Source: Subsaximicrobium wynnwilliamsii
Lineage (GTDB): Bacteria; Bacteroidota; Bacteroidia; Flavobacteriales; Flavobacteriaceae
Direction of reading: 5' to 3'
Assembly: GCF_007997225.1 (NCBI RefSeq)
Contig: NZ_VORM01000003.1
Span: 62,001-126,000 of the forward strand
Length of the DNA stretch: 64,000 nt
The position numbers were made by a program, and so were the translations under genes. Of this stretch, positions 1 through 11,050 are shown one piece after another (positions within the stretch are counted from its first letter, which is position 1; each line of letters starts with the position of its first letter). The notes below the pieces were generated by a model. It was not told the DNA's origin, ran no database searches, and was given only the letters and a program-made list of their open reading frames with translations.

Positions 1-2719
1 TCATCGTATTAAGGTCGACAAGTGGGCGCCAAGCTACGGGCAAATTTTCGTTGGTACTGGCTGCAACTGGCACTATGGTTACATTCCCCGCGCTTGTATT
101 ATTAACTCTATCACTTTTTACTTGATAATGCGGCAGACATTTTACACGATGAACCTGAGGAAATTCATCCAATACCAAGGTTTCATAATCCCATTTCGAA
201 ATTGCCCTTGTACGATGGCGCAAGCGTTCGCTGGTGCGTTTATAAAAATCGCTATCGGTATCTTTTGCGCGACCGCCAAAACTGCTATACGGCTGTTCAA
301 TTTTTTTGATTTGGTTTTTAGGTCTCAACAATTTAGTAATCGTTTTAGATTCTAGATGTTTAGTGAACAAAACACCCGTATTTTCATAATCAGTCAAAAC
401 CGCTTTGAAAGCTTGTAAATGGAGTCCAACCAAGTTGCATACAGCTGCCGTTCTTTGTGGAACTGCAATTCTCAACCAAAAGATGCTCTCCGTAAAAATT
501 GTTTGCCCAGAAAACTGAAACTCTTTAGGGACTTTAAAAAATATAATTCCAGATTGCGTAAGACCGTTTGTTTCATCACCAGCGATGTCTTCGTCAAATT
601 CACTCCAAACATTTTGCTGGTCCAAATACCTAAAATTTATTTCTGCTGGTGCTAAGGTTGGATCGGCACTGCCCTCTTCTACTTGAATAAGAAGACTTAA
701 GGGCTGCCCAGCTTTCACATCTTTAATTCCGACGATCAATTCCCCTTCATTTTCAAATTTTGGAAGTAATTCTCTTAGACTTTTCGCTTCATATCCCTTT
801 GGATAAAGATGAAATGTTTGAACTTCATTGTCATTTGAATCGGCAGAATATCTAAAACTAAAATCGGTAATTATCGGTAAATAGGGAAGATTTGTATTGA
901 CTTTATCTTTGCCGGCATCAATGAATATTTCTAAATATGAGTTTGTACCGGATTTAGAATCAGAGAAATCGTAATTAATAAATTTGATTCGTGCGATTCC
1001 ATGGACTGTTTTCTTATTAAAAGCCGGATTTTCATCATACGTAAATTCTCTTTCTTTTATTTCATTGGTATTTGTTATGGGATTGTCTAAATCTATGGTT
1101 CCCCATGTTCCTTTATTTAAGAGATTTATCGTTGTGTGTTCAAAAATATTCCATGATAAGTCATCCATCTTAATTTCAAAATTTCCGATAGCATTTTTCT
1201 TCTGAAAAAACTCATTGCTGGAAAAGTAAATGGATGATTCTTTACGAGGAATTGGGCCAAATGCCTCGAATTTTTTTGAATGGTCAATTTCACCAAAATC
1301 TGAAAAGAGGCTGAATTCTTTATAATTGTTTACTTCAACTTCCAGTATAAAAGCATTGATTGCTTTTTGAATCAATTGCCCATTCTTAGCTATTATTTTT
1401 AAAATGGGAAAAGTAGTGTCGATGGTAACCCCATCATGAAAATCAGAATTGAAAGGGATGATTGGAGATATTTCGGCAGGGAGCGTAATTATTACCATGT
1501 TATTAACCCCAACGTATTCGTTTACTTCAATCCATTCTTCTTCTGCGGTCAAATAGAAATTGAATTTGTCTTTCAAACTTTGATAATTAAAATTCGTCCA
1601 ACCATTTTCAAAAGAAAGTTTAATCTTTCTATCCCCACCTTTTAAAAAAAGCAATGGACTTGCCAGTGCAAAACCAATAGTGTGGGAAGCCGTGTGTTTT
1701 TCAAATGGCTTCCAAGCTTCTCCTGCTGTAATCAATTCTGTGAAATCATGGAAATAGTATTGGTCAAAATTTGTTTTATTTTCTAAAAAGCCACCAAAAA
1801 CTTGATCGATTTTTGCATGATTCACAGCTAAATCAGATGTGGCGGCATAATATTTTGCTTTCCCGTCATCTGTTTTACCAGCAAGTAAAACGGCGTTTTT
1901 TTCCAATAAAAATGGATCTATGTTTTTATGCGATTGCACTATGCAATGCACAAAATCGGGTTCCGCAGAATTTGCTTCAAGACGCAAAATCTTCTTATAA
2001 TAAAAATCCAAATGCCGTGTTGTGAATTGGTTTGCTTCCTTCTGCGCTTCAGAAAAAAGCTTTAAAAATGTGAGAAACAATGTATATTGTGGGCTGTGCT
2101 TTGGGTAAGAATCGATTTGCTCCTGAAAGCTTGATCCAGATTTTGTTTTCAAATCTAACAACATGCCAAATAAATTCCTGACTTGTTTATTGAATAAATG
2201 GTCGTGAAATAATTGAAGTGCATCCGTTGAAAGATCTATTTGATCCATAATATAAACCATCAACTCGTTGACTCGTATATAAAATGATAGGTAATACTCT
2301 TTGATGCTTATAGCTTCGGGCAGTTTGACCATTCTAGAATGGTACTCAGTTAACTGGTTCTGGATAGCCTGAAAAAACACTCGCATTTCAGATTTTCTAT
2401 CTGCTTCATCTGCAATAAAAAGCAATTTTCTAAGCTTCAATTTCAATTCTTGCTGCAGGGCTTTAACGTTTAGGGTAGAGAGTTCGGCAAAGAGCGATGT
2501 AGATTCCCAACTGAATAACGCGCTCCAATTGCCATCAATCACATTTTCCGCCCCATAAAAATGGATGTGTTTGGATAGTTGAATTGTGGAAACGATAAGG
2601 TCTTGGATGCTCCGCTCGTCAAGCAATACAAAGTCGGTGCTTAACCCTTTCGGAAAACGGGAAGCCTGGGTGGCTCCCGGCTGTCTGTGAATTTCGATTT
2701 GTGTATTGCAATTTGCCAT
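1..2719 (-). CDS. eCIS baseplate protein, gpJ/Afp11-like (partial, 3' end outside window)
   Basis: The frame is open for about 906 codons from the ATG at 2719 to the left edge, so the C-terminus is missing. Around residues 813-850 it has the signature of contractile-tail baseplate J proteins: FGGRAKDTDSDFYKRTSERL, then a Arg-rich stretch and the segment ISKWDYETLVLDEFPQVH. In Afp/PVC particles this protein (Afp11/Pvc11, equivalent to T4 gp6) forms the baseplate ring wedges that hold the sheath in its extended state. It starts 5 bases after the gp25-like gene, so it is the last visible member of one minus-strand operon. The long N-terminal part (residues 1-800) has no motif I recognise, which is normal for this family. 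The identification rests on the motif plus strict gene context. Confidence 0.88.
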   Translation of the reverse strand, partial: MANCNTQIEIHRQPGATQASRFPKGLSTDFVLLDERSIQDLIVSTIQLSKHIHFYGAENVIDGNWSALFSWESTSLFAELSTLNVKALQQELKLKLRKLLFIADEADRKSEMRVFFQAIQNQLTEYHSRMVKLPEAISIKEYYLSFYIRVNELMVYIMDQIDLSTDALQLFHDHLFNKQVRNLFGMLLDLKTKSGSSFQEQIDSYPKHSPQYTLFLTFLKLFSEAQKEANQFTTRHLDFYYKKILRLEANSAEPDFVHCIVQSHKNIDPFLLEKNAVLLAGKTDDGKAKYYAATSDLAVNHAKIDQVFGGFLENKTNFDQYYFHDFTELITAGEAWKPFEKHTASHTIGFALASPLLFLKGGDRKIKLSFENGWTNFNYQSLKDKFNFYLTAEEEWIEVNEYVGVNNMVIITLPAEISPIIPFNSDFHDGVTIDTTFPILKIIAKNGQLIQKAINAFILEVEVNNYKEFSLFSDFGEIDHSKKFEAFGPIPRKESSIYFSSNEFFQKKNAIGNFEIKMDDLSWNIFEHTTINLLNKGTWGTIDLDNPITNTNEIKEREFTYDENPAFNKKTVHGIARIKFINYDFSDSKSGTNSYLEIFIDAGKDKVNTNLPYLPIITDFSFRYSADSNDNEVQTFHLYPKGYEAKSLRELLPKFENEGELIVGIKDVKAGQPLSLLIQVEEGSADPTLAPAEINFRYLDQQNVWSEFDEDIAGDETNGLTQSGIIFFKVPKEFQFSGQTIFTESIFWLRIAVPQRTAAVCNLVGLHLQAFKAVLTDYENTGVLFTKHLESKTITKLLRPKNQIKKIEQPYSSFGGRAKDTDSDFYKRTSERLRHRTRAISKWDYETLVLDEFPQVHRVKCLPHYQVKSDRVNNTSAGNVTIVPVAASTNENLPVAWRPLVDLNTM

Positions 2720-2724
2720 AATGA

Positions 2725-3135
2725 TTATTGAACTAAACTACCTTCTTTTATATAAAACGGATAAACAAAATTGCTTCTAGAATTGGTTGTTCTTAATCTA
2801 TAATGGATTTGGATGTAAAGAATGCCTTCTAATTCTATAGAATTCTTTAAGGATACATTTTCCAAGTCGATTCTGGGCTCATATTTCAAAATTGACTTTT
2901 CAATGAGTCTTTTCAATTTCGTCATCATCGTGACCGTCATGTTTTCAAAACTCATCGCTTTAATACCACATCCATAATCTGACCGCAGCACTCGTTCGCC
3001 GGGAGAAGTCGTTATCAAAAGCTCCAGGCTTTGTTCAATATCCAATTCACCGCTTACTGTTATTAAAGACTTTTGAGTCTTGTTAAATGTTGGTGGAAAG
3101 CTCCATCCTGTTCCTAAAAATTGTTTTTCTTCCAT
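2725..3135 (-). CDS. eCIS baseplate protein, gp25/Afp9-like
   Basis: This 136-residue protein fits the gp25-like lysozyme-fold baseplate family in length and pattern: an early GTGWSFPPTF, then an I-x-Q-S-L-E-L-L-I segment, GERVLRSDYGCGI at about residues 46-58, and a central I-L-K-Y-E-P-R-I. Despite the family name these proteins are structural, not enzymatic; they link the sheath base to the baseplate wedge. It lies between the PAAR gene (10 bases upstream) and the gpJ-like gene (5 bases downstream). In Afp and PVC clusters gp25 (Afp9) comes before the PAAR protein (Afp10), so the order here is reversed. Confidence 0.9.
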   Translation of the reverse strand: MEEKQFLGTGWSFPPTFNKTQKSLITVSGELDIEQSLELLITTSPGERVLRSDYGCGIKAMSFENMTVTMMTKLKRLIEKSILKYEPRIDLENVSLKNSIELEGILYIQIHYRLRTTNSRSNFVYPFYIKEGSLVQ

Positions 3136-3145
3136 CCTGTTTTAT

Positions 3146-3439
3146 TTAACCACCTATTAACACCGTACCTGCACCAATTACAATGCTTCCGCCATGAGCT
3201 GTGCTATCGCCCATTCTTGCAGCAGGTTTACCTCCAATTAATACGGAACCAGAGCCCGCTACAATGACATCCGGCGGACCAGCACAAGTGCATTGGTCGC
3301 CCATGCAAGCTGCCGGTAGTCCTTCTATCAGCACCGTAGCGTTGGAACCGGGCAGAATTGGCCCTCCAACGTGCGGAGAACCATTTGGGTTTGCCATTGG
3401 ACAAACATGCATATCGTTTAATCTTGCTGCTAAAGACAT
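3146..3439 (-). CDS. PAAR-motif spike-tip protein, Afp10-like
   Basis: This 97-residue protein is a bare PAAR domain: repeated Pro-Ala-Ala-(C/R)-x-G-D segments (PAACMGDQCTC, then PAARMGDSTAHGG) and repeated V-L-I-G-G turns. Several His and Cys residues (H11, C13, H23, C46, C50, C52, H81) are available for the structural metal. PAAR proteins cap the spike and make the sharp point of contractile injection machines. There is no C-terminal extension after the last IGG, so it does not carry a fused toxin. It starts 4 bases after the spike gene, consistent with co-assembly. Confidence 0.93.
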   Translation of the reverse strand: MSLAARLNDMHVCPMANPNGSPHVGGPILPGSNATVLIEGLPAACMGDQCTCAGPPDVIVAGSGSVLIGGKPAARMGDSTAHGGSIVIGAGTVLIGG

Positions 3440-3443
3440 TTTC

Positions 3444-5087
3444 TTAATTTAATTGTATTAAAGAACCTTGTATTTCCATGATGCCTGATGCTTTGAAAGA
3501 GTTTTGAACCCCTTCAATGGTGACGCTCATATTAGCTTTCAAGTTCAGGTCTTTTGCACTTTCTATAGTAATTCCGCTACTATCCATTTGTATTTTATTT
3601 CCATTTTGATCTTCGAGGATAATACCGGATTCATCATCACTAATAACTATAATATTGCCACCTGCGGTTTTTGCTTCAATAGATTTTTTTTCATCATCAA
3701 ATATCAAATGGCTCCCTTCTTTGGTTACAATGCCTTGAATGAAATTGTCATTATTTAAGTCGAAAGGCGCAATATTATTATCACTATACAACTTACCAAG
3801 AATTACGGGGCTGTCGGGATTATCACTAAAAAACCCTAAAACAACTTCATCCCCAATATCAGGAACAAACCAACCACCACGGTTTTGTCCGGCTTGTATG
3901 GATGACAGACGAGCCCAATAGCCTTCACCCGAATCGTTTATAGAAGTAATTTGAACCTGTACACGATATTGACTTACGGGATCATCCTCCAGATTGGTAA
4001 CTTTACCAATTTGCAAGCCTGAAATTGAATTCATTTGGCCTAATCTGCTTTCGTTTTTACTTTGAACGAATGCGTTAAATTCAACATAAGATTGACTATT
4101 CTCCAGCCCAAAAGCATATTCGGTTTTCCAACCATTTTCATCAATGCTGTGATGTTCTGAAGTTATCAATAGCGATTGTTCCTCAAAATCATTACCAGAT
4201 TCTATAAAAGACATATATTCTCCATAATTCGCCTGTAAATTGCCAAAAGTTTTCACGCGACCAGAAAAGGTAGACAGTCTATTTTTTGCCGCTCTGCCTC
4301 TTGCGATTTTATTAATGGTTTCTGGTGTTAAATAAGTCTGCCCCAAATCGTTGACTTCAATACCCTCAGAACCTTCAACTTCTGTGTCCACCTCTTCTCT
4401 TTTGTTTTCCTGATCGCTGATATCCCAATATTCAATCATTACTGAGGCTACTGTTGAGGAGCGACGGTATTCTAAATCAAAAATATTAACGCCAAACTGC
4501 AGTTCTGTTGTCACTTCTCCCAGGTCTGTACTTAAAATTGCAGAAAACACACCCTTTTTAATGGTTGTTAAATATCCCAACGTATCTAAATAACTGATGA
4601 TGAAATCCCAAGGTGAGAGATTATCAACTAGGCTAATTTGCTCATCCCCCAACGATGCTATTTCTAGGGTATTTGAAATGGAATGGTGACTCAACAGACG
4701 GTCAAATCTGTCTTGAAACGTTTCATTTGGAATTATTTCTTGAACCGTTAAGAGCCTAGAAACAATATCCTTACACTCTAGTTGTACCCGAAAACCACTG
4801 GCACTCATTTTTTTTTTAATTTCTTCAATGAGGCCTTTGAATAGGGTTTTCATTTCCCCATCTTCCCGAATTTTAATTTCTATTTCATCGCTAATGGCAA
4901 ATGCAAGCGCTTTAGCCTTAGCGTTGTTTTGAAAATGATTGCCAGCTACAAGGTTTATTTTTGCGTAAGGGATTCTATTTACCTCATATTCAACTGTCAA
5001 TGATTCAATTGATGTATGTAGATTATCATTTTGGCCATTAATAAACAGCTCTAAATCAATCGTTTCGTAAAGAGGGATTATTGGCAT
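3444..5087 (-). CDS. eCIS spike protein, gp27/gp5 (VgrG-like, Afp8)
   Basis: The 547-residue protein reads as the fused hub-spike of contractile injection systems. Residues 1 to about 340 resemble the gp27/phage late control D fold; residues about 365-450 form an OB-like domain containing ARLSSIQAGQNRGGWFVPDI and DEVVLGFFSDNPDSPVILG, which is the conserved VgrG/gp5 signature. The C-terminus (about 455-547) is a run of short repeats typical of the gp5 triple beta-helix needle, ending in KASGIMEIQGSLIQLN. No effector domain follows the needle. It is preceded by the LysM gene at 4 bases and followed by PAAR at 4 bases, matching Afp7-Afp8-Afp10 roles. Confidence 0.92.
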   Translation of the reverse strand: MPIIPLYETIDLELFINGQNDNLHTSIESLTVEYEVNRIPYAKINLVAGNHFQNNAKAKALAFAISDEIEIKIREDGEMKTLFKGLIEEIKKKMSASGFRVQLECKDIVSRLLTVQEIIPNETFQDRFDRLLSHHSISNTLEIASLGDEQISLVDNLSPWDFIISYLDTLGYLTTIKKGVFSAILSTDLGEVTTELQFGVNIFDLEYRRSSTVASVMIEYWDISDQENKREEVDTEVEGSEGIEVNDLGQTYLTPETINKIARGRAAKNRLSTFSGRVKTFGNLQANYGEYMSFIESGNDFEEQSLLITSEHHSIDENGWKTEYAFGLENSQSYVEFNAFVQSKNESRLGQMNSISGLQIGKVTNLEDDPVSQYRVQVQITSINDSGEGYWARLSSIQAGQNRGGWFVPDIGDEVVLGFFSDNPDSPVILGKLYSDNNIAPFDLNNDNFIQGIVTKEGSHLIFDDEKKSIEAKTAGGNIIVISDDESGIILEDQNGNKIQMDSSGITIESAKDLNLKANMSVTIEGVQNSFKASGIMEIQGSLIQLN

Positions 5088-5091
5088 AATT

Positions 5092-5859
5092 TTATTTTAA
5101 AGGTGGAAAATGGATGTGTTCTCCTACACGAACATTTCGAAAACTAAGCAAGCCGTTTGACCGCGCCGCATCGATATAATAATTGTTGTTTTCATATACC
5201 TTTTCGGCCAACAATGGAAAACGATCTTGGAGTTTAAAAGTAAACTCATGAGTAACGTCAGGCGAAGCATCGTTTCTTTGGTTCAAAATTTCATTAAAAG
5301 ATGTACTTTGAATAAACTCACAGGTAACTGTGGCTCGAATGGGCTGCCCATCGTTCCGAAAAAGGCTGTAATTGATTTGCATATTAGACACCCTACATTC
5401 AAAAAGCAACTTTCCCCAAAGGAGTCTTAAGTATCTAGGTTCGTGCGCATCACCATGATAATGCACCAAAGCCTCTTGGAATTTTGTTAATTTTTCATGA
5501 ATACTATCAGGTGTATCAAACGGGTTTGTAACTGCTGGTTTTAAAGCTTCAATGACGGCATCACCAACAGGAAAATTATCTGCTTGCCCTTCCTCTATTC
5601 TAGCTGGTGGCAAAACTCCAGACGAATCAAATATAAAATCAAAAGAAAGTCTTTTTTGTCCCACCCATTTGAAAGTGGTTATTGTATTGGACCCTCCAAT
5701 AACATCATCTTCATAATATTCAATGTTTTTGGTTTCTGAATAGCTTTCAGGATTTATTTGAACAAAGATTGTTTTTAATATTTCACGCTCACTGTACTTA
5801 CTGGAAGGAAATACCTCTATGCGCATTTTATCAATAATACCCAAAATTCCTTTGATCAT
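5092..5859 (-). CDS. LysM-containing eCIS hub protein, Afp7/Pvc7-like
   Basis: This 255-residue protein has the layout of Afp7/Pvc7: an N-terminal phage-tail-like region (PSSKYSEREILKTIFVQINP at residues about 17-36, FDFIFDSSG in the middle) and a C-terminal LysM-like segment from about residue 210, with RFPLLAEKVYENNNYYIDAA and RVGEHIHFPPLK. In phages the equivalent proteins connect the tube to the spike hub. Its start ATG overlaps the stop of the small DUF5908 gene by four bases (ATGA), indicating translational coupling. The spike gene begins 4 bases after its stop. Confidence 0.87.
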   Translation of the reverse strand: MIKGILGIIDKMRIEVFPSSKYSEREILKTIFVQINPESYSETKNIEYYEDDVIGGSNTITTFKWVGQKRLSFDFIFDSSGVLPPARIEEGQADNFPVGDAVIEALKPAVTNPFDTPDSIHEKLTKFQEALVHYHGDAHEPRYLRLLWGKLLFECRVSNMQINYSLFRNDGQPIRATVTCEFIQSTSFNEILNQRNDASPDVTHEFTFKLQDRFPLLAEKVYENNNYYIDAARSNGLLSFRNVRVGEHIHFPPLK

Positions 5860-6026
5860 CGTCTTTGTTTTTGTTTCAATTCTTCTAAAACTTTACGTTT
5901 GCATTCACTGATAATATCAGATTTCATTTTTTTTAAAGCCCCGCTCAATAGCTCCTTATTATCGTGCTTATTGAGTGGCTCATGAACTATAATTTTGATA
6001 TCTAATTCCTTAATTTCTATAGGCAT
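5856..6026 (-). CDS. DUF5908 family small eCIS protein, Afp6-like
   Basis: A 56-residue frame runs from the ATG at 6026 to a TGA overlapping the next start. The product begins MPIEIKELDIKIIVHEP and ends in a Lys/Arg-rich helix (KRKVLEELKQKQRR). The opening MPIEIxEL is characteristic of DUF5908, the tiny family at the Afp6/Pvc6 position between the tube initiator and the LysM protein. That is its position here, 11 bases after the tube gene and overlapping the LysM gene by four. The function of the family is not known; a role in assembly is inferred from its constant location. The gene is short enough to be missed by length-filtered gene finding. Confidence 0.85.
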   Translation of the reverse strand: MPIEIKELDIKIIVHEPLNKHDNKELLSGALKKMKSDIISECKRKVLEELKQKQRR

Positions 6027-6037
6027 AATTACTGGGT

Positions 6038-6490
6038 TTAAGGGATTGGAATTTCATTAAAAAACTGATAGTCGAGTGTTAAGGTTTCAAAAACGATAGT
6101 ACTTGCTTCCGCATTAAAATCAGAAATTGAAAACGCTTTCGGAATTGCTTTTATAACATACCATGCTTTAACAGGGTTGTGTTCTTCATTGAGTAACATC
6201 ACAAGCAGGTTTGCTGGAACAAACACAAAACTTTGCAAGGCGTTGTTTACCCACAAACGCAGGCCTGAAAAATCGTTAGTAACCCCTCTTTTTAAAACCA
6301 AATCGTCAAAATCATTCCCCTTTGGCAGTGCTATTTTAAACCTGTTTTGTCCACCCTCCGAAATACTTTCCATTTCCATAGTAGAGGTTAGCCCGCTTAC
6401 GCTTTGAAATTTTGTATCAATACTAAACTGAGGCAACAGCTCAAAAACTACAGAAAAGTGGAATCCGGAAAATGGCATTGCGCTGGCCAT
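6038..6490 (-). CDS. eCIS tube protein (T4 gp19 family, Afp5-like)
   Basis: This 150-residue protein is the second of two tube-family proteins. It shows the family pattern: FSGFHFSVVFELLP at the N-terminus, SVSGLTSTMEMESISEGG, a LKRGVTNDFSGLRLWVNNAL centre, and VMLLNEEHNPVKAWYVIKAI with a late F-N-A-E. By position (after the main tube, before DUF5908 and LysM) it corresponds to Afp5/Pvc5, the tube initiator that joins the tube to the spike. It starts 3 bases after the upstream tube gene. Confidence 0.9.
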   Translation of the reverse strand: MASAMPFSGFHFSVVFELLPQFSIDTKFQSVSGLTSTMEMESISEGGQNRFKIALPKGNDFDDLVLKRGVTNDFSGLRLWVNNALQSFVFVPANLLVMLLNEEHNPVKAWYVIKAIPKAFSISDFNAEASTIVFETLTLDYQFFNEIPIP

Positions 6491-6493
6491 GGC

Positions 6494-6925
6494 TTATGCG
6501 TATTTAACTGTGAAACCATGATTTGCAAGCACCATAGTATCAATTGCGTTACCATTTTCTTCAGCATTTAAACTAGAAAATTCAATGGAAGTAATGAAGC
6601 ACTCTTTTACATTCCAGACCAGAGTTGGCTCGTGCTCTTCATTCAATAATGAAATCACTATATCTCTTTTTTCTACGGTATTTAATGCAACGGTGTTGTA
6701 CCATTTATAGAATTCGTCGTCATTTAAGAAAACGCCTCTTTTCAGGGATATATCACTCAGAGTATGCATTCCAGGCATCTTCCGTTTGAAATATTCTGGG
6801 CTTGAACCTTCTCTGTATTCCAATATTTCGAGTTCTTTTTTAAGACCCGATACTTCTTGAAAGCCAATACTTGTGCCGCCCCAATCCACTCTAAAATGAA
6901 AATTTGGTAATGGAAAATCTTTCAT
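6494..6925 (-). CDS. eCIS inner tube protein (T4 gp19 family, Afp1-like)
   Basis: The 143-residue protein carries the standard tube motif set: FPLPNFHFRVDWGG, FQEVSGLKKELEILEYREG, the SPEYFKRKMPGM stretch, ISLKRGVFLNDDEFYKWYN and ISLLNEEHEPTLVWNVKECF. Such proteins stack as hexamers to form the rigid tube that is pushed into the target. It sits between the single sheath gene (29 bases upstream) and the tube-initiator paralogue (3 bases downstream). It is probably the most abundant tube subunit, judged from the closer match to Afp1. Confidence 0.93.
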   Translation of the reverse strand: MKDFPLPNFHFRVDWGGTSIGFQEVSGLKKELEILEYREGSSPEYFKRKMPGMHTLSDISLKRGVFLNDDEFYKWYNTVALNTVEKRDIVISLLNEEHEPTLVWNVKECFITSIEFSSLNAEENGNAIDTMVLANHGFTVKYA

Positions 6926-6954
6926 AACTAATATGTTTTAGGTTTTTAATTTAT

Positions 6955-8808
6955 TTATGATCTCTGTTGCATTTGTGTAAATTCAAGTACAATAAATTCT
7001 GCTGGTCTTGATGGCGCATAACCGATTTTCACAATCATTCGCCCCTCTAAAATATCTTGGGCTGTCATGGTTTGTCCTAAACCTACGCTTACAAAAAATG
7101 CATCCTCTGGTTTTGCTCCAGACAGACCACCGTCTCGCCACACAACACTTAGAAAATTGGAAATCATCCCATTTACAGCAACCCAGGTTTGTTTTACATT
7201 TGGTTCAAACACAAAATTAAAAGCTGCTTTTTTACAGGATTCTTCTATCATGTTGGCCAAGCGACGTACATTAATATAGCGCCAGTCGTTACTATTTCCG
7301 TCTAAAGTTCGTGCACCCCAAACCAACAAGCCTTTACCTGTGAACTTCCGGATGGCGTTTATTGATTTTCCGGTTTCATGTACATTCATTGTGGCTTGTT
7401 CTTTATAATTCACATCATCCGTTAAGCCTATGATGCCATTTAAACTCACATTTGCCGGAGCTTTCCAAACCCCTCGGTTTGCATCCACATAGGCATAAAT
7501 ACCCGCCATTGCGCCACTAGGTGGAACAGTATTCATGGTTCCATTCAGTCTTGTGATGATGCCGGAATATTCAGAAAGCATGGATACCAAATTATTTTCT
7601 TCCTGAAGTTCTAAATCTCTCAAATTCGCGACTAACGAATTCAAGCTTTGAACTATTTGATTGTGTAATTTATCCAAGAGATTTTTTACTTTGGAAAAGT
7701 CGGCAGCATCAGAGTCGCTGTTTTGGTTTAGTTGATTATCATAAGGATTTGGGGTTGAAACAGGGCCGGTTGAAGAAACCTCCCAAGGTGCTATAAAATC
7801 ACTAGCACCTGTTACTAATGTAATATCTGTATTATCATCCAAGCCGTTAAAGGCGGTCGCGAAATCAAAAATTCGTTGTGCTAAAGATTGTAGAGAACCC
7901 GTAATGGCATTTTCTACTTCAGTTTCTAACAAGCCGCTTCCACTAACATCGCCTAAAGGCCTGAGTAAATTCCAAAGACTCGCATTATAATCGTTTACGT
8001 TTGATTCTGAAGTTATATCAATTTTAGCATTGGCAAGTTTAGCATCATGGCAAGCGGTGGCGAGTGTGTCTAAGTCAGATTGATATTCGTCAAATTTATC
8101 AATAGCTGTAGTTATCTCACTATTAGAACTATGCGCCGCTCTAAAATCCACACCCCCGTTTACAATATCGCGGTATCTGAATTGATGCCCAAAACTGGAT
8201 TGTAAATAAGGATAATAAGCTGCACCGTACTTTAAGTCTCTGTTGCCAACCTGATCTCTAAAAGCCGCTAAATCGGTGCCCAAATCACTTGCAATCCTAA
8301 CATCCATAATGGTAAACCGGTCCATTAGTTCACTACAATGCGTCAATGCAGCCTTTTGCACTAGTCCTAGATTTTCTGCAGTTAAATTGATGGCATCCGG
8401 AAAAAGGATCAAGGTGGGCTCATCGAAACTTTCCAAAAGTGCCAGCCCATCTTCAAACGGTGTGGAAGCACTGAAATCAGGGGCAGAATCAAAACTGCCA
8501 ATTGAAACGATATAGCAATCGCCGCCGCCATTTGCGTAGAACAAGCGTAAACTATTATAAAGTTTAAATTGGCTTTCTGTGACATCATAGATGTTTGTAG
8601 CCAAATCAATATTCATGCTAGCTGGCGGGGAAACCCCTCCAAACAATACTTCAAATTCAAGCATAGATGCTATTTTAGTTGGCTCATTTGTGCCAAATTC
8701 TGTATAACCAATAAAGGCGGGAATTGCTGTGGCTACTTGTGCCACACTAGGCGGGAATGCATTCTTTTCGATGACATAAACGCCAGGGGTTTTGAGTGTA
8801 CTCAACAT
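6955..8808 (-). CDS. contractile tail sheath protein (Afp2-4-like)
   Basis: The 617-residue product begins MLSTLKTPGVYVIEKNAFPP and continues with AIPAFIGYTEFG, the classic sheath N-terminus. It ends with the conserved sheath C-terminus: NFVFEPNVKQTWVAVNGMI, GQTMTAQDILEGRMIVKIGY and PAEFIVLEFTQ. Sheath subunits contract to drive the tube. It is clearly longer than the roughly 350-450-residue sheaths of Afp/PVC; the extra length lies in the middle (about residues 190-430), where a poorly conserved, Asp/Asn/Ser-rich surface domain is expected. Only one sheath gene is present, against three in Afp. It follows the DUF4255 gene by 12 bases. Confidence 0.95.
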   Translation of the reverse strand: MLSTLKTPGVYVIEKNAFPPSVAQVATAIPAFIGYTEFGTNEPTKIASMLEFEVLFGGVSPPASMNIDLATNIYDVTESQFKLYNSLRLFYANGGGDCYIVSIGSFDSAPDFSASTPFEDGLALLESFDEPTLILFPDAINLTAENLGLVQKAALTHCSELMDRFTIMDVRIASDLGTDLAAFRDQVGNRDLKYGAAYYPYLQSSFGHQFRYRDIVNGGVDFRAAHSSNSEITTAIDKFDEYQSDLDTLATACHDAKLANAKIDITSESNVNDYNASLWNLLRPLGDVSGSGLLETEVENAITGSLQSLAQRIFDFATAFNGLDDNTDITLVTGASDFIAPWEVSSTGPVSTPNPYDNQLNQNSDSDAADFSKVKNLLDKLHNQIVQSLNSLVANLRDLELQEENNLVSMLSEYSGIITRLNGTMNTVPPSGAMAGIYAYVDANRGVWKAPANVSLNGIIGLTDDVNYKEQATMNVHETGKSINAIRKFTGKGLLVWGARTLDGNSNDWRYINVRRLANMIEESCKKAAFNFVFEPNVKQTWVAVNGMISNFLSVVWRDGGLSGAKPEDAFFVSVGLGQTMTAQDILEGRMIVKIGYAPSRPAEFIVLEFTQMQQRS

Positions 8809-8820
8809 AATATTTGTGTT

Positions 8821-9441
8821 TTAGTTTTTTGTTAAATCGTTTGTTGTTTCTATGACAAATCCATCAGCCGTTGATTTGTCCAATAAATCGATACGGACAC
8901 GCTCAATGATGCCATATCCGTCTTCGGCAATACCTTGAATTGGAATCAGTTTTACTTTGTAAATAACAGATGGTAAGTACTTCCCTCCTATAATTGACCA
9001 TAATTGATTTTGCTGATTGAGATCCATATTTTGAATCTCAAGTACAATCTGAAGGTTTTCAGGTCTTCCCGGTAACGGAATTTCATAAATATGTTGCTCT
9101 TGAAAACATTCCAAGACCTTTTCCAGTCTTTGTAAAGAATCTGTATATCTTGCATTACTACTGCAAGCCGCGAACAATAAGTTTAAACTAAAAGATTTTT
9201 GAGGATTAGACCTTTTACTGTAATCATCGTTTCCGTCTTTGATGAAATAGACATTTTTATTATTGGCCAAGCGTTCCTCATCAATCTTAAGAACCGTGAT
9301 GAAAATTTTTGAAAAATTGACTGACTTAAATTCATCATCGCTCAAAAGTCCTACATTACCCACACTAACACTGTTAGAAGTCCCAGAAAAACTTTCGATT
9401 CGATCTTTAATAAATTCTAAGACTGGAACGATTGTGTTCAT
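8821..9441 (-). CDS. DUF4255 protein, eCIS tube terminator/cap (Afp16/Pvc16-like)
   Basis: This 206-residue protein has the DUF4255 pattern: an N-terminal helix (VLEFIKDRIESF), a central segment LNLLFAACSSNARYTDSLQR, FQEQHIYEIPLPG, and QNQLWSIIGGKYLPSVIYKV. In Afp and PVC the DUF4255 protein (Afp16/Pvc16) caps the distal end of the tube and sheath and sets particle completion. There it is the last gene; here it opens the operon, 12 bases ahead of the sheath. No TAnnTTTG element was found directly upstream, so the promoter remains unidentified. Confidence 0.9.
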   Translation of the reverse strand: MNTIVPVLEFIKDRIESFSGTSNSVSVGNVGLLSDDEFKSVNFSKIFITVLKIDEERLANNKNVYFIKDGNDDYSKRSNPQKSFSLNLLFAACSSNARYTDSLQRLEKVLECFQEQHIYEIPLPGRPENLQIVLEIQNMDLNQQNQLWSIIGGKYLPSVIYKVKLIPIQGIAEDGYGIIERVRIDLLDKSTADGFVIETTNDLTKN

Positions 9442-10035: not shown

Positions 10036-11050
10036 CTAATGATATCTTGATAAAATGACAATCAATGGGATAATCCTTGAATCAAGTTCTCGTTTATAAT
10101 AAACATATTCTGTGAATTTTTCCATATTATCATGGATAAGGCAGATCAATACAACAGCTTTGTCCGAAATCTCTGTATATCTAAATAAATGCAATAAGTC
10201 TGTAGCTAAATTTAAACTGTTTGTTTTTTCGGCTTCATCCTTATATTTTTCAATAATTGCCAAGGCATTGGGCAAAATGGGGATTTTGACCGTTTCATTT
10301 GTTTTTTCACGTTTGGTAAAGATCCAATAGTTGTTGTCGATGCCCCTAATAATATGGTTCAAAGTCAGTTCCCTGGCACCTAAATAAGAAAGTACCGTAT
10401 AACAGGAAAATGTAAAACAGTCCTATACACGTTCCAACCGCTCCATAGTGAAATGCATGTTTTCAATCAGTTCGAGTTCGCGCTAAGCAAGGAACTGTCT
10501 GTCAAATTTATTGTACTTAAGCTGAAACTGATTGAACGGATTTTTTGGAAACCATAATAACTTAACGGCAAGGTTGCCCATTTTTTTAAAGCGTTTCAAA
10601 TGTTTTATAATGCCATTATTGGAACGCACCAATTCCTTTTTTGGATTTCTGAAGGCTCTCAGGAACTGCTCAAATTCACCAATGAACCGATAGTTCAATT
10701 GTTTCAGGTAAATGTCATCCGCTTTTGAAACTTTACTCAAATACTTCAAAAGACATCTTCCTGTAGTGTGATATTTTTTCATGGTGCCATATTTCAAAAT
10801 GCCGACCATGCTGGCACTATGGTAGGCTATGCGCTGATTTAGTGTCTTATGGCTCTCGTCCAGACCCAAATAACGTGCTTTAATGGCGTTTGCGGTTCTC
10901 TCCTTATTCCAGAAATTGTTTATGGCAGTCCAATTAAATGGCTATTTACTTGGTCTAGGCAGGTATTGAGGACTTTTGTTTTGTAGGAACTTCCACGTGC
11001 CCTATTCCTGTTGCTGTCCCATCATAACTTGATTCCATTTGGAGGAAACA
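10036..11050 (-). pseudogene. Degraded tyrosine recombinase (Bacteroidota integrase type)
   Basis: Fragments of one integrase are spread over two frames. Near 11050-10950 the product reads SSKWNQV, then after a frameshift WDSNRNRARGSSYKTKV, matching the arm-binding domain of these integrases. Another shift leads at about 10915 to NKERTANAIKARYLGLD and the SAM-like core-binding domain (to 10483). Two in-frame TAG codons (10483-10485 and about 10426) then interrupt the frame before the start of the catalytic domain, FTFSCYTVLSYLGARELT and WIFTKREKTNETVKIPIL. The end (10036-10150) no longer resembles the HxxR...Y catalytic part. The gene is on the same strand as tRNA-Pro and starts about 120 bases beyond its 3' end, the usual place for an island integrase. 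It cannot be active. Confidence 0.85.

Follow-up and report, generated by a model that had tools for sequence, protein, structure and literature searches.

The left end of the window, as we call the whole 64,000-nucleotide stretch of Subsaximicrobium wynnwilliamsii DNA analysed here, carries part of an operon encoding an AlgoCIS-type extracellular contractile injection system (eCIS), a system known here from its genes alone. In its parts and gene order this eCIS is an ordinary one of its type, and it is distinct by its cap and by its place in a lineage devoid of the cap adaptor. It is likely that the operon is complete, that it belongs to a clade without adaptor and that its one-domain cap, prolonged by a C-terminal tail, both seals the tube end and retains the last ring of the sheath. 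Going further, this flavobacterial lineage might have swapped the separate cap-adaptor lock for an extension of the cap C-terminus, a single protein ending the tube and clamping the last sheath ring; this proposal is tentative, and we hold it as possible, somewhat short of probable. In contig coordinates (prefix C67) the window is C67:62001-126000 of a 4.9 Mb assembly, and the full operon is C67:50083-71441, with 17 genes over 21.4 kb that extend about 12 kb to the left of the window start (Table 1). Labels in G and L denote genomes and loci.

The original prediction, made on positions 1-9441, had recognised an eCIS; its genes are all there and colinear, and they lie on the minus strand. Its list of parts (DUF4255, sheath, two tubes, DUF5908, spike, PAAR, gp25 and gpJ) is confirmed by Pfam on the window proteins. 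The announced LysM gene stands by its position, which is that of AlgoCIS Alg7 (tube domain and LysM); the LysM domain itself appears only as a match to LysM2_NFP at residues 206-252, below the cut-off. The AAA ATPase, tape measure, fibre and cargo genes to be looked for left of base 1 are all there. Sheath, tube, spike, PAAR, gp25, baseplate J, DUF4255 cap and AAA ATPase are thereby gathered in a single cluster, and the only two eCIS_core (DUF4157) proteins matched in the assembly are both encoded in the operon. Together with the tape measure and the fibre, these genes support an eCIS over type VI secretion or a prophage. A search for the IcmF_C and TssJ (SciN) families, with TssL not included, detected both in an Escherichia coli control and neither anywhere in the assembly, and a type VI secretion system (T6SS) was rejected on this ground. 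Ten flanking proteins, a part of the flanking open reading frames (ORFs), were scanned and include no head or packaging family, leading to the rejection of a prophage. The flanking genes scanned are of the housekeeping kind: a TonB receptor, a sorbosone dehydrogenase, a cytochrome c, a kinase, an ankyrin protein, a formate/nitrite transporter, a release-factor-like protein and methyltransferases. An AraC-type regulator flanks the operon as well.

The nearest solved relatives of the sheath, spike, cap, Alg12-type and Alg19-type proteins belong to AlgoCIS or to the Anabaena system, far ahead of the antifeeding prophage (Afp) and the Photorhabdus virulence cassettes (PVC). For the sheath, E-values are 2e-117 with AlgoCIS 7adz, 2e-104 with 9r9h, 8e-61 with 9qgl (counted as PVC on the title of 9qgn), 1e-59 with Pvc3 and 2e-57 with Afp3. 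AlgoCIS likewise exceeds the best Afp/PVC-type chain for the spike (5e-69 versus 4e-21) and the Alg12-type baseplate protein (5e-106 versus 2e-25). The placement in the AlgoCIS type (subtype Ib) is drawn from these E-values against solved chains, the trees described below holding no AlgoCIS or Afp sequences. The Alg19-type fibre is also present, the distal part of the AlgoCIS fibre (Alg19, 1443 residues; PMC13314943) having no counterpart of that length in the 855 amino acids (aa) of the operon protein.

Relatives were assembled from a phylum set, in which CIS_tube was matched in 73 of 395 genomes at 76 places (those of the window and of G037 and the other 74, all included), from a sheath search and from 80 loci in named genomes. 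The latter are the best 80 of at least 541 confirmed relatives of the sheath alignment, drawn by similarity and not as a random sample. Queried with the portion of the Afp11-type protein that the window encodes, the genome contigs had given no matches; the sheath alignment then succeeded. Profiles built up from the window proteins served to label the genes in all these loci. In the 151 loci whose spike was recognised, the cap comes before the sheath in all 143 evaluable cases and is the first recognised gene in 141 of them; the sheath comes before the tube in each of 148 cases, and PAAR before gp25 in 140 of 141. A single sheath gene is carried by 127 loci, two by 18 and three by 3, with none in view in 3.

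These counts change the meaning of the gene order. Read downward from position 9441, the series is cap, sheath, tube, tube, DUF5908, CIS_tube, spike, PAAR, gp25 and Afp11-type baseplate, and the Afp-numbered order first given for it, 16-2-1-5-6-7-8-10-9-11, holds as written. It had been called rearranged for its single sheath, its leading cap gene and the exchange of PAAR and gp25. All of this is true with respect to Afp, where, as in PVC, the cap gene is encoded last; it is nevertheless the standard arrangement of this branch. Gene order was rejected as a novelty because it is nearly invariant across these loci. With a leading cap and one sheath as the norm, a departure from Afp numbering says little about rearrangement. 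The cap-first order also fits the Anabaena system, where the promoter of the all3327-all3315 operon was assigned to the region upstream of all3327 (PMC8894136), All3327 being the cap-like chain of 7b5i.

The distinctive trait lies between cap and sheath. Most loci carry an extra gene there, mostly of 250-450 aa, and one of these products matches the Anabaena cap adaptor All3326 (5e-10) and the AlgoCIS adaptor (1e-4). The cap-sheath gap, of 554-1445 bp in adaptor-bearing loci, is reduced to 12 bp in the window, and no counterpart of Alg16B was matched by an adaptor profile in its genome. The same profile found nothing in any of the 15 adaptor-less genomes searched, this one included. In the first set, 15 of the 75 loci with cap, sheath and spike, among them the window and G008, had a gap below 200 bp and no adaptor gene. 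The spike tree of 146 non-identical loci comprises 109 with the adaptor, 29 without it, three with an unrecognised stretch in its place and five without a judgeable gap. The last two groups were dropped before the counts, and among the 138 loci judged the adaptor is usual, not universal, in the AlgoCIS type. Adaptor presence is tabulated in Figure 6a of PMC8894135, and the adaptor-less state is not claimed here as unreported in the literature.

A branch with support 100 separates the window and 18 relatives from the rest in the spike, Afp11-type and sheath trees, and the clade sits on a long stem. All 19 loci lack the adaptor and have one sheath each, with cap-sheath gaps of 3-55 bp that leave no room for an adaptor gene, and their structural genes in view are unbroken. 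This is a real, well-supported adaptor-less lineage. The original prediction was correct in speaking of a lineage of its own; the basis for it is provided by the trees and the missing cap adaptor, and none by gene order. Besides the window and G008, from the same genus, the clade counts 17 other members, and nearly all are Flavobacteriales, judged by name or relatedness. Named records are from Aureisphaera, Lutibacter, Ulvibacter, Aquimarina, Flavobacterium, Chryseobacterium, a Flavobacteriaceae bacterium and one Bacteroidia bacterium, the remaining genomes belonging to the same family or order as the window. Within the clade, the spike tree sets the window apart from the 18 other members, the Afp11-type tree puts it inside a starred 8-row group, and the sheath tree does not settle its position.

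The spike tree, built without outgroup, required a spike ORF of at least 480 aa, and L118, L120 and L139 were dropped from it, their spikes being identical to another. The Afp11-type tree has 144 rows with ORFs of at least 850 aa, and the sheath tree includes 111 of 180 sheath ORFs. In the latter, the clade is nested among adaptor-bearing rows with support 92 (a branch not starred), and the outgroup rows are on very long branches. The adaptor is also absent from 10 further loci outside the clade, some in draft metagenome-type assemblies. On the spike tree its distribution calls for 7 changes, at least 6 of them being forced by well-supported branches, a count that cannot tell gain from loss. 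The adaptor is missing as well from L114, which has a fragmented spike and is in no tree. Two loci with near-identical spikes (end branches of 0.009) differ in this respect, L057 having an adaptor and L056 none, if this is not an assembly effect. Two other loci from one genus, L024 and L087, combine three sheath genes with the lack of a cap adaptor and have a divergent sheath paralogue directly after the cap gene, which might serve as a terminal ring.

A second trait concerns the cap C-terminus. In a 152-row alignment of caps, the tail, meaning whatever follows the last column that is well filled, measures 14-33 residues in all 19 clade caps, 0-6 in all 111 adaptor-bearing caps (109 on the tree after removal of duplicates) and 1-19 in the 11 other adaptor-less caps. 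Among the 138 loci usable on the tree, 20 of the 29 adaptor-less ones have a tail of at least 10 residues versus none of the 109 with adaptor; the sole such locus outside the clade, L088, has a 2-bp gap and an 18-residue tail. The link between tail and adaptor is suggestive only. A model of the window cap, with a predicted local distance difference test score (pLDDT) of 74, matches the fold of the AlgoCIS cap 7adz_0A first, then that of Anabaena and then that of Streptomyces coelicolor. In AlgoCIS the cap C-terminus meets the adaptor N-terminus (PMC8894135), which makes a longer cap C-terminus the natural site of a replacement contact. In S. coelicolor the cap is one protein, Cis16, that terminates both tube and sheath (PMC12237407); a one-protein cap is thus workable in another class. 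A functional role of the tail is what we infer from sequence and from two independent cases only.

Solved relatives suggest how the system would operate. Particles would assemble in the cytoplasm, with the eCIS_core proteins loaded in the tube with the aid of the AAA ATPase, and would be released by lysis. The Alg19-type fibre, helped by a small knob-like protein, would bind the target, and contraction of the single-protein sheath would drive the tube and its VgrG/PAAR spike through the envelope. At the distal end, the one-domain cap with its lengthened, flexible C-terminus would close the tube and hold the last sheath ring free of any adaptor, in the manner of Cis16. If true, this would be a second, simpler way to lock a loaded contractile sheath, in a group where the adaptor was thought to be required. 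A whole clade and several scattered loci seem to manage without it; should their particles work, they would reveal the minimal needs of a distal lock and bear on the firing of contractile injection systems (CIS) and the evolution of their assembly.

Several results weigh against such a cap. The tail has at most 5 residues in 9 of the 29 adaptor-less loci, and among six independent pairs it tracks adaptor absence in two, with no tail difference in four (sign test, p 0.5, not significant). Residues 170-179 and 181-206 of the window cap have a pLDDT below 50 in the monomer model, so that a tail contact is not derivable from it. The adaptor profile recovered 4 of 5 adaptor-bearing controls and missed one. 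AlgoCIS deprived of its adaptor yields mis-assembled or aberrant, empty particles (PMC8894135). The adaptor is described as important for AlgoCIS particle assembly and locking (PMC8894135, PMC13314943) and is said to lock the pre-firing state (PMC13314943).

The aberrant particles of AlgoCIS open the way to another explanation, since the lack of an adaptor could here mean a poor particle: an AlgoCIS-type eCIS would have lost its adaptor and would now form unstable or defective particles, the gap reflecting decay and not design. The integrase remnant adjoining the operon fits such a history, and outside the clade the L056-L057 pair looks like a recent loss. Decay is nonetheless unlikely, for all 17 operon genes are open in the window's genome, and it would not be expected to preserve an adaptor-less state common to 19 loci on a long, fully supported stem with unbroken structural genes. 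A replacement of the adaptor by another protein, whether a highly diverged adaptor encoded away from the operon or a different product of the operon itself, is comparably doubtful. Adaptors evolve fast (in a set of 8 rows, 20-43% identical to the first one), one control escaped the profile and the three loci with an unrecognised stretch in the adaptor position, all outside the clade, have gaps of 646-1001 bp. The clade gaps, however, leave no room for such a gene, and the small gene of the clade loci read there resembles in a low-confidence model a fibre knob and not an adaptor.

A membrane-anchored, cell-bound system, of the subtype-4 T6SS or thylakoid type, would replace the released particle altogether, which we find quite improbable. 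Subtype-4 T6SS and AlgoCIS share subtype Ib (PMC8894135), and the mode of action thus cannot be read from sequence kinship by itself. Against anchoring, a simple hydropathy scan detected no hydrophobic segment in the 15 operon proteins other than the cargo, and IcmF_C and TssJ are unmatched in the assembly. To our knowledge, subtype-4 T6SS may also be without these two families. Lastly, a phage tail, prophage or tailocin, to which the tail-derived nature of every structural part and the integrase remnant near the cap gene could point, is barely credible given the eCIS_core cargo, AAA ATPase, CIS_TMP and DUF5908 genes and the flanking proteins described above.

The closest known system is AlgoCIS of Algoriphagus machipongonensis (PMC8894135, PMC13314943; PDB 7adz, 7aeb, 7aef, 9wt0), the best or near-best solved relative for sheath, spike, cap, baseplate and fibre. 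Both have one sheath, a short single-domain cap, a plug, an Alg11/12-type baseplate, an Alg19-type fibre and two DUF4157 cargo proteins. AlgoCIS differs by its adaptor Alg16B and longer fibre, and the window operon by an additional 183-aa knob-like gene and a cap tail longer than in adaptor-bearing loci. The thylakoid-anchored CIS of Anabaena (all3313-all3327; PMC8894136; PDB 7b5h, 7b5i) offers counterparts, by locus number, for the cap (All3327), sheath (All3325), spike (All3320), Alg12-type (All3315) and Alg19-type (All3314) proteins. It possesses the adaptor All3326 and a transmembrane Cis13 (PMC8894136), whereas the window operon has no adaptor and no hydrophobic segment in its structural proteins. 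The S. coelicolor CIS (class IId, PMC12237407; PDB 9gts) shares a one-protein cap, its fold being the third-best match to the window cap with a weak sequence match (E 0.09); according to PMC12237407, it has no fibre, no tape measure gene and a different wedge. Afp and PVC share homologous parts 1-16 by position and family and differ by several sheath proteins (Afp2-4, Pvc2-4), a larger two-domain cap and much lower similarity.

Table 1. Genes and gap of the AlgoCIS-type operon, in window positions or, with the prefix C67, in contig coordinates
Feature	Position	Strand	Evidence
Cap / tube terminator (Alg16A/Afp16 type), single domain, 206 aa, C-terminal extension	8821..9441	-	Pfam Pvc16_N/DUF4255 5e-21; nearest solved chains All3327 and AlgoCIS cap
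Cap-sheath gap, 12 bp, usual site of the adaptor gene (Alg16B) in most relatives	8809..8820	-	No ORF between
Single contractile sheath, 617 aa	6955..8808	-	Pfam sheath families 3e-10; best solved relative AlgoCIS sheath 7adz, E 2e-117
Inner tube protein (Afp1 position)	6494..6925	-	Pfam gp19 7e-42
Second tube / tube initiator (Afp5 position)	6038..6490	-	Pfam gp19 2e-30
DUF5908 plug (Alg6/Afp6 position)	5856..6026	-	Pfam DUF5908 1e-14
CIS tube-type initiator (Afp7/Alg7 position), weak LysM	5092..5859	-	Pfam CIS_tube 6e-42; LysM2_NFP E 0.025, sub-threshold
VgrG-like central spike (Afp8)	3444..5087	-	Pfam Phage_base_V 3e-20; best solved relative AlgoCIS 7aef_q, E 5e-69
PAAR spike tip (Afp10)	3146..3439	-	Pfam PAAR 1e-24
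gp25-like sheath initiator (Afp9)	2725..3135	-	Pfam GPW_gp25 2e-24
Baseplate wedge, Afp11/Alg11 type, 1052 aa	1..2719, then beyond the window start as far as C67:61561	-	Pfam Baseplate_J 9e-7 (larger part searched); rest read on the same contig past the window start
Alg12-type baseplate	C67:58553-61573		Best solved matches All3315 1e-119, AlgoCIS Algo12 5e-106
Alg19-type fibre, 855 aa	C67:55973-58540		Residues 5-542 match AlgoCIS 9wt0_a, E 7e-51
Small knob-like protein, 183 aa	C67:55409-55960		
Tape measure	C67:54055-55422		CIS_TMP family
eCIS_core cargo, 326 aa	C67:53042-54022 (= L003:7042-8022)		
AAA ATPase	C67:51572-52849		
eCIS_core cargo, 483 aa	C67:50083-51534 (= L003:4083-5534)		

The two cargo proteins differ in their C-terminal parts and contain strong hydrophobic segments, three in one and a single one in the other by the hydropathy scan, which hints that they may act on membranes. 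Their C-termini match no family besides eCIS_core above the Pfam cut-off and none in PHROGs or PADLOC, and a search for solved relatives, which covered the 483-aa protein and not the 326-aa one, found none.

The 183-aa gene has same-place counterparts in all four other clade loci read downstream, in L187 by position and N-terminal alignment only, and no counterpart was recognised in the three non-clade loci so read. L190, from outside the clade, has a different 312-aa gene after its fibres, with no tape measure recognised in view. A low-confidence model of the protein (pLDDT 63) combines an N-terminal helical hairpin with a beta-sandwich. Its structural matches are weak and mixed with unrelated folds, starting from E 0.02 in the PDB, with none below 0.001, and from 3e-4 in BFVD. 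Among the more probable ones, trimeric fibre heads are frequent, those of reovirus sigma1, adenovirus fibre and a lactococcal phage receptor-binding protein. With its gene just before the tape measure, in the Afp13 position, the protein may be read as a short receptor-binding protein, a lead and not a result.

By the cap end of the operon, window positions 10036-10869 on the minus strand hold a tyrosine recombinase remnant, a Phage_int_SAM_5 N-terminal part. A separate short ORF nearby resembles by eye a catalytic-domain piece of such an enzyme and matches no Pfam family. The operon is also patchy within the genus: of 22 other genomes there, 1 has a full-length match to the sheath. These remnants and this distribution suggest that the operon arrived horizontally.

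Additional sheath genes are scattered in the genus. The window's genome (G000) has a second, lone sheath gene on contig C110 (L019:14251-18151, L020:2276-7585), split over two overlapping frames and adjoining a 1769-aa protein that matches CHAT, DUF7379 and LCAT/esterase; the surroundings show no recognised tube, spike or baseplate gene. Reduced cassettes occur in same-genus genomes (L026:14584-16654, L029:11544-17187), with no spike or baseplate recognised. In L026, a sheath and a tube lie beside a major facilitator superfamily-like transporter ORF similar by eye to that of C110. L029 has cap, adaptor and sheath along with two more proteins, one of 582 aa and one of 277 aa that resembles a coiled coil in matches below the cut-off. 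In the sheath tree, the L026 and L029 sheaths group with those of complete eCIS loci.

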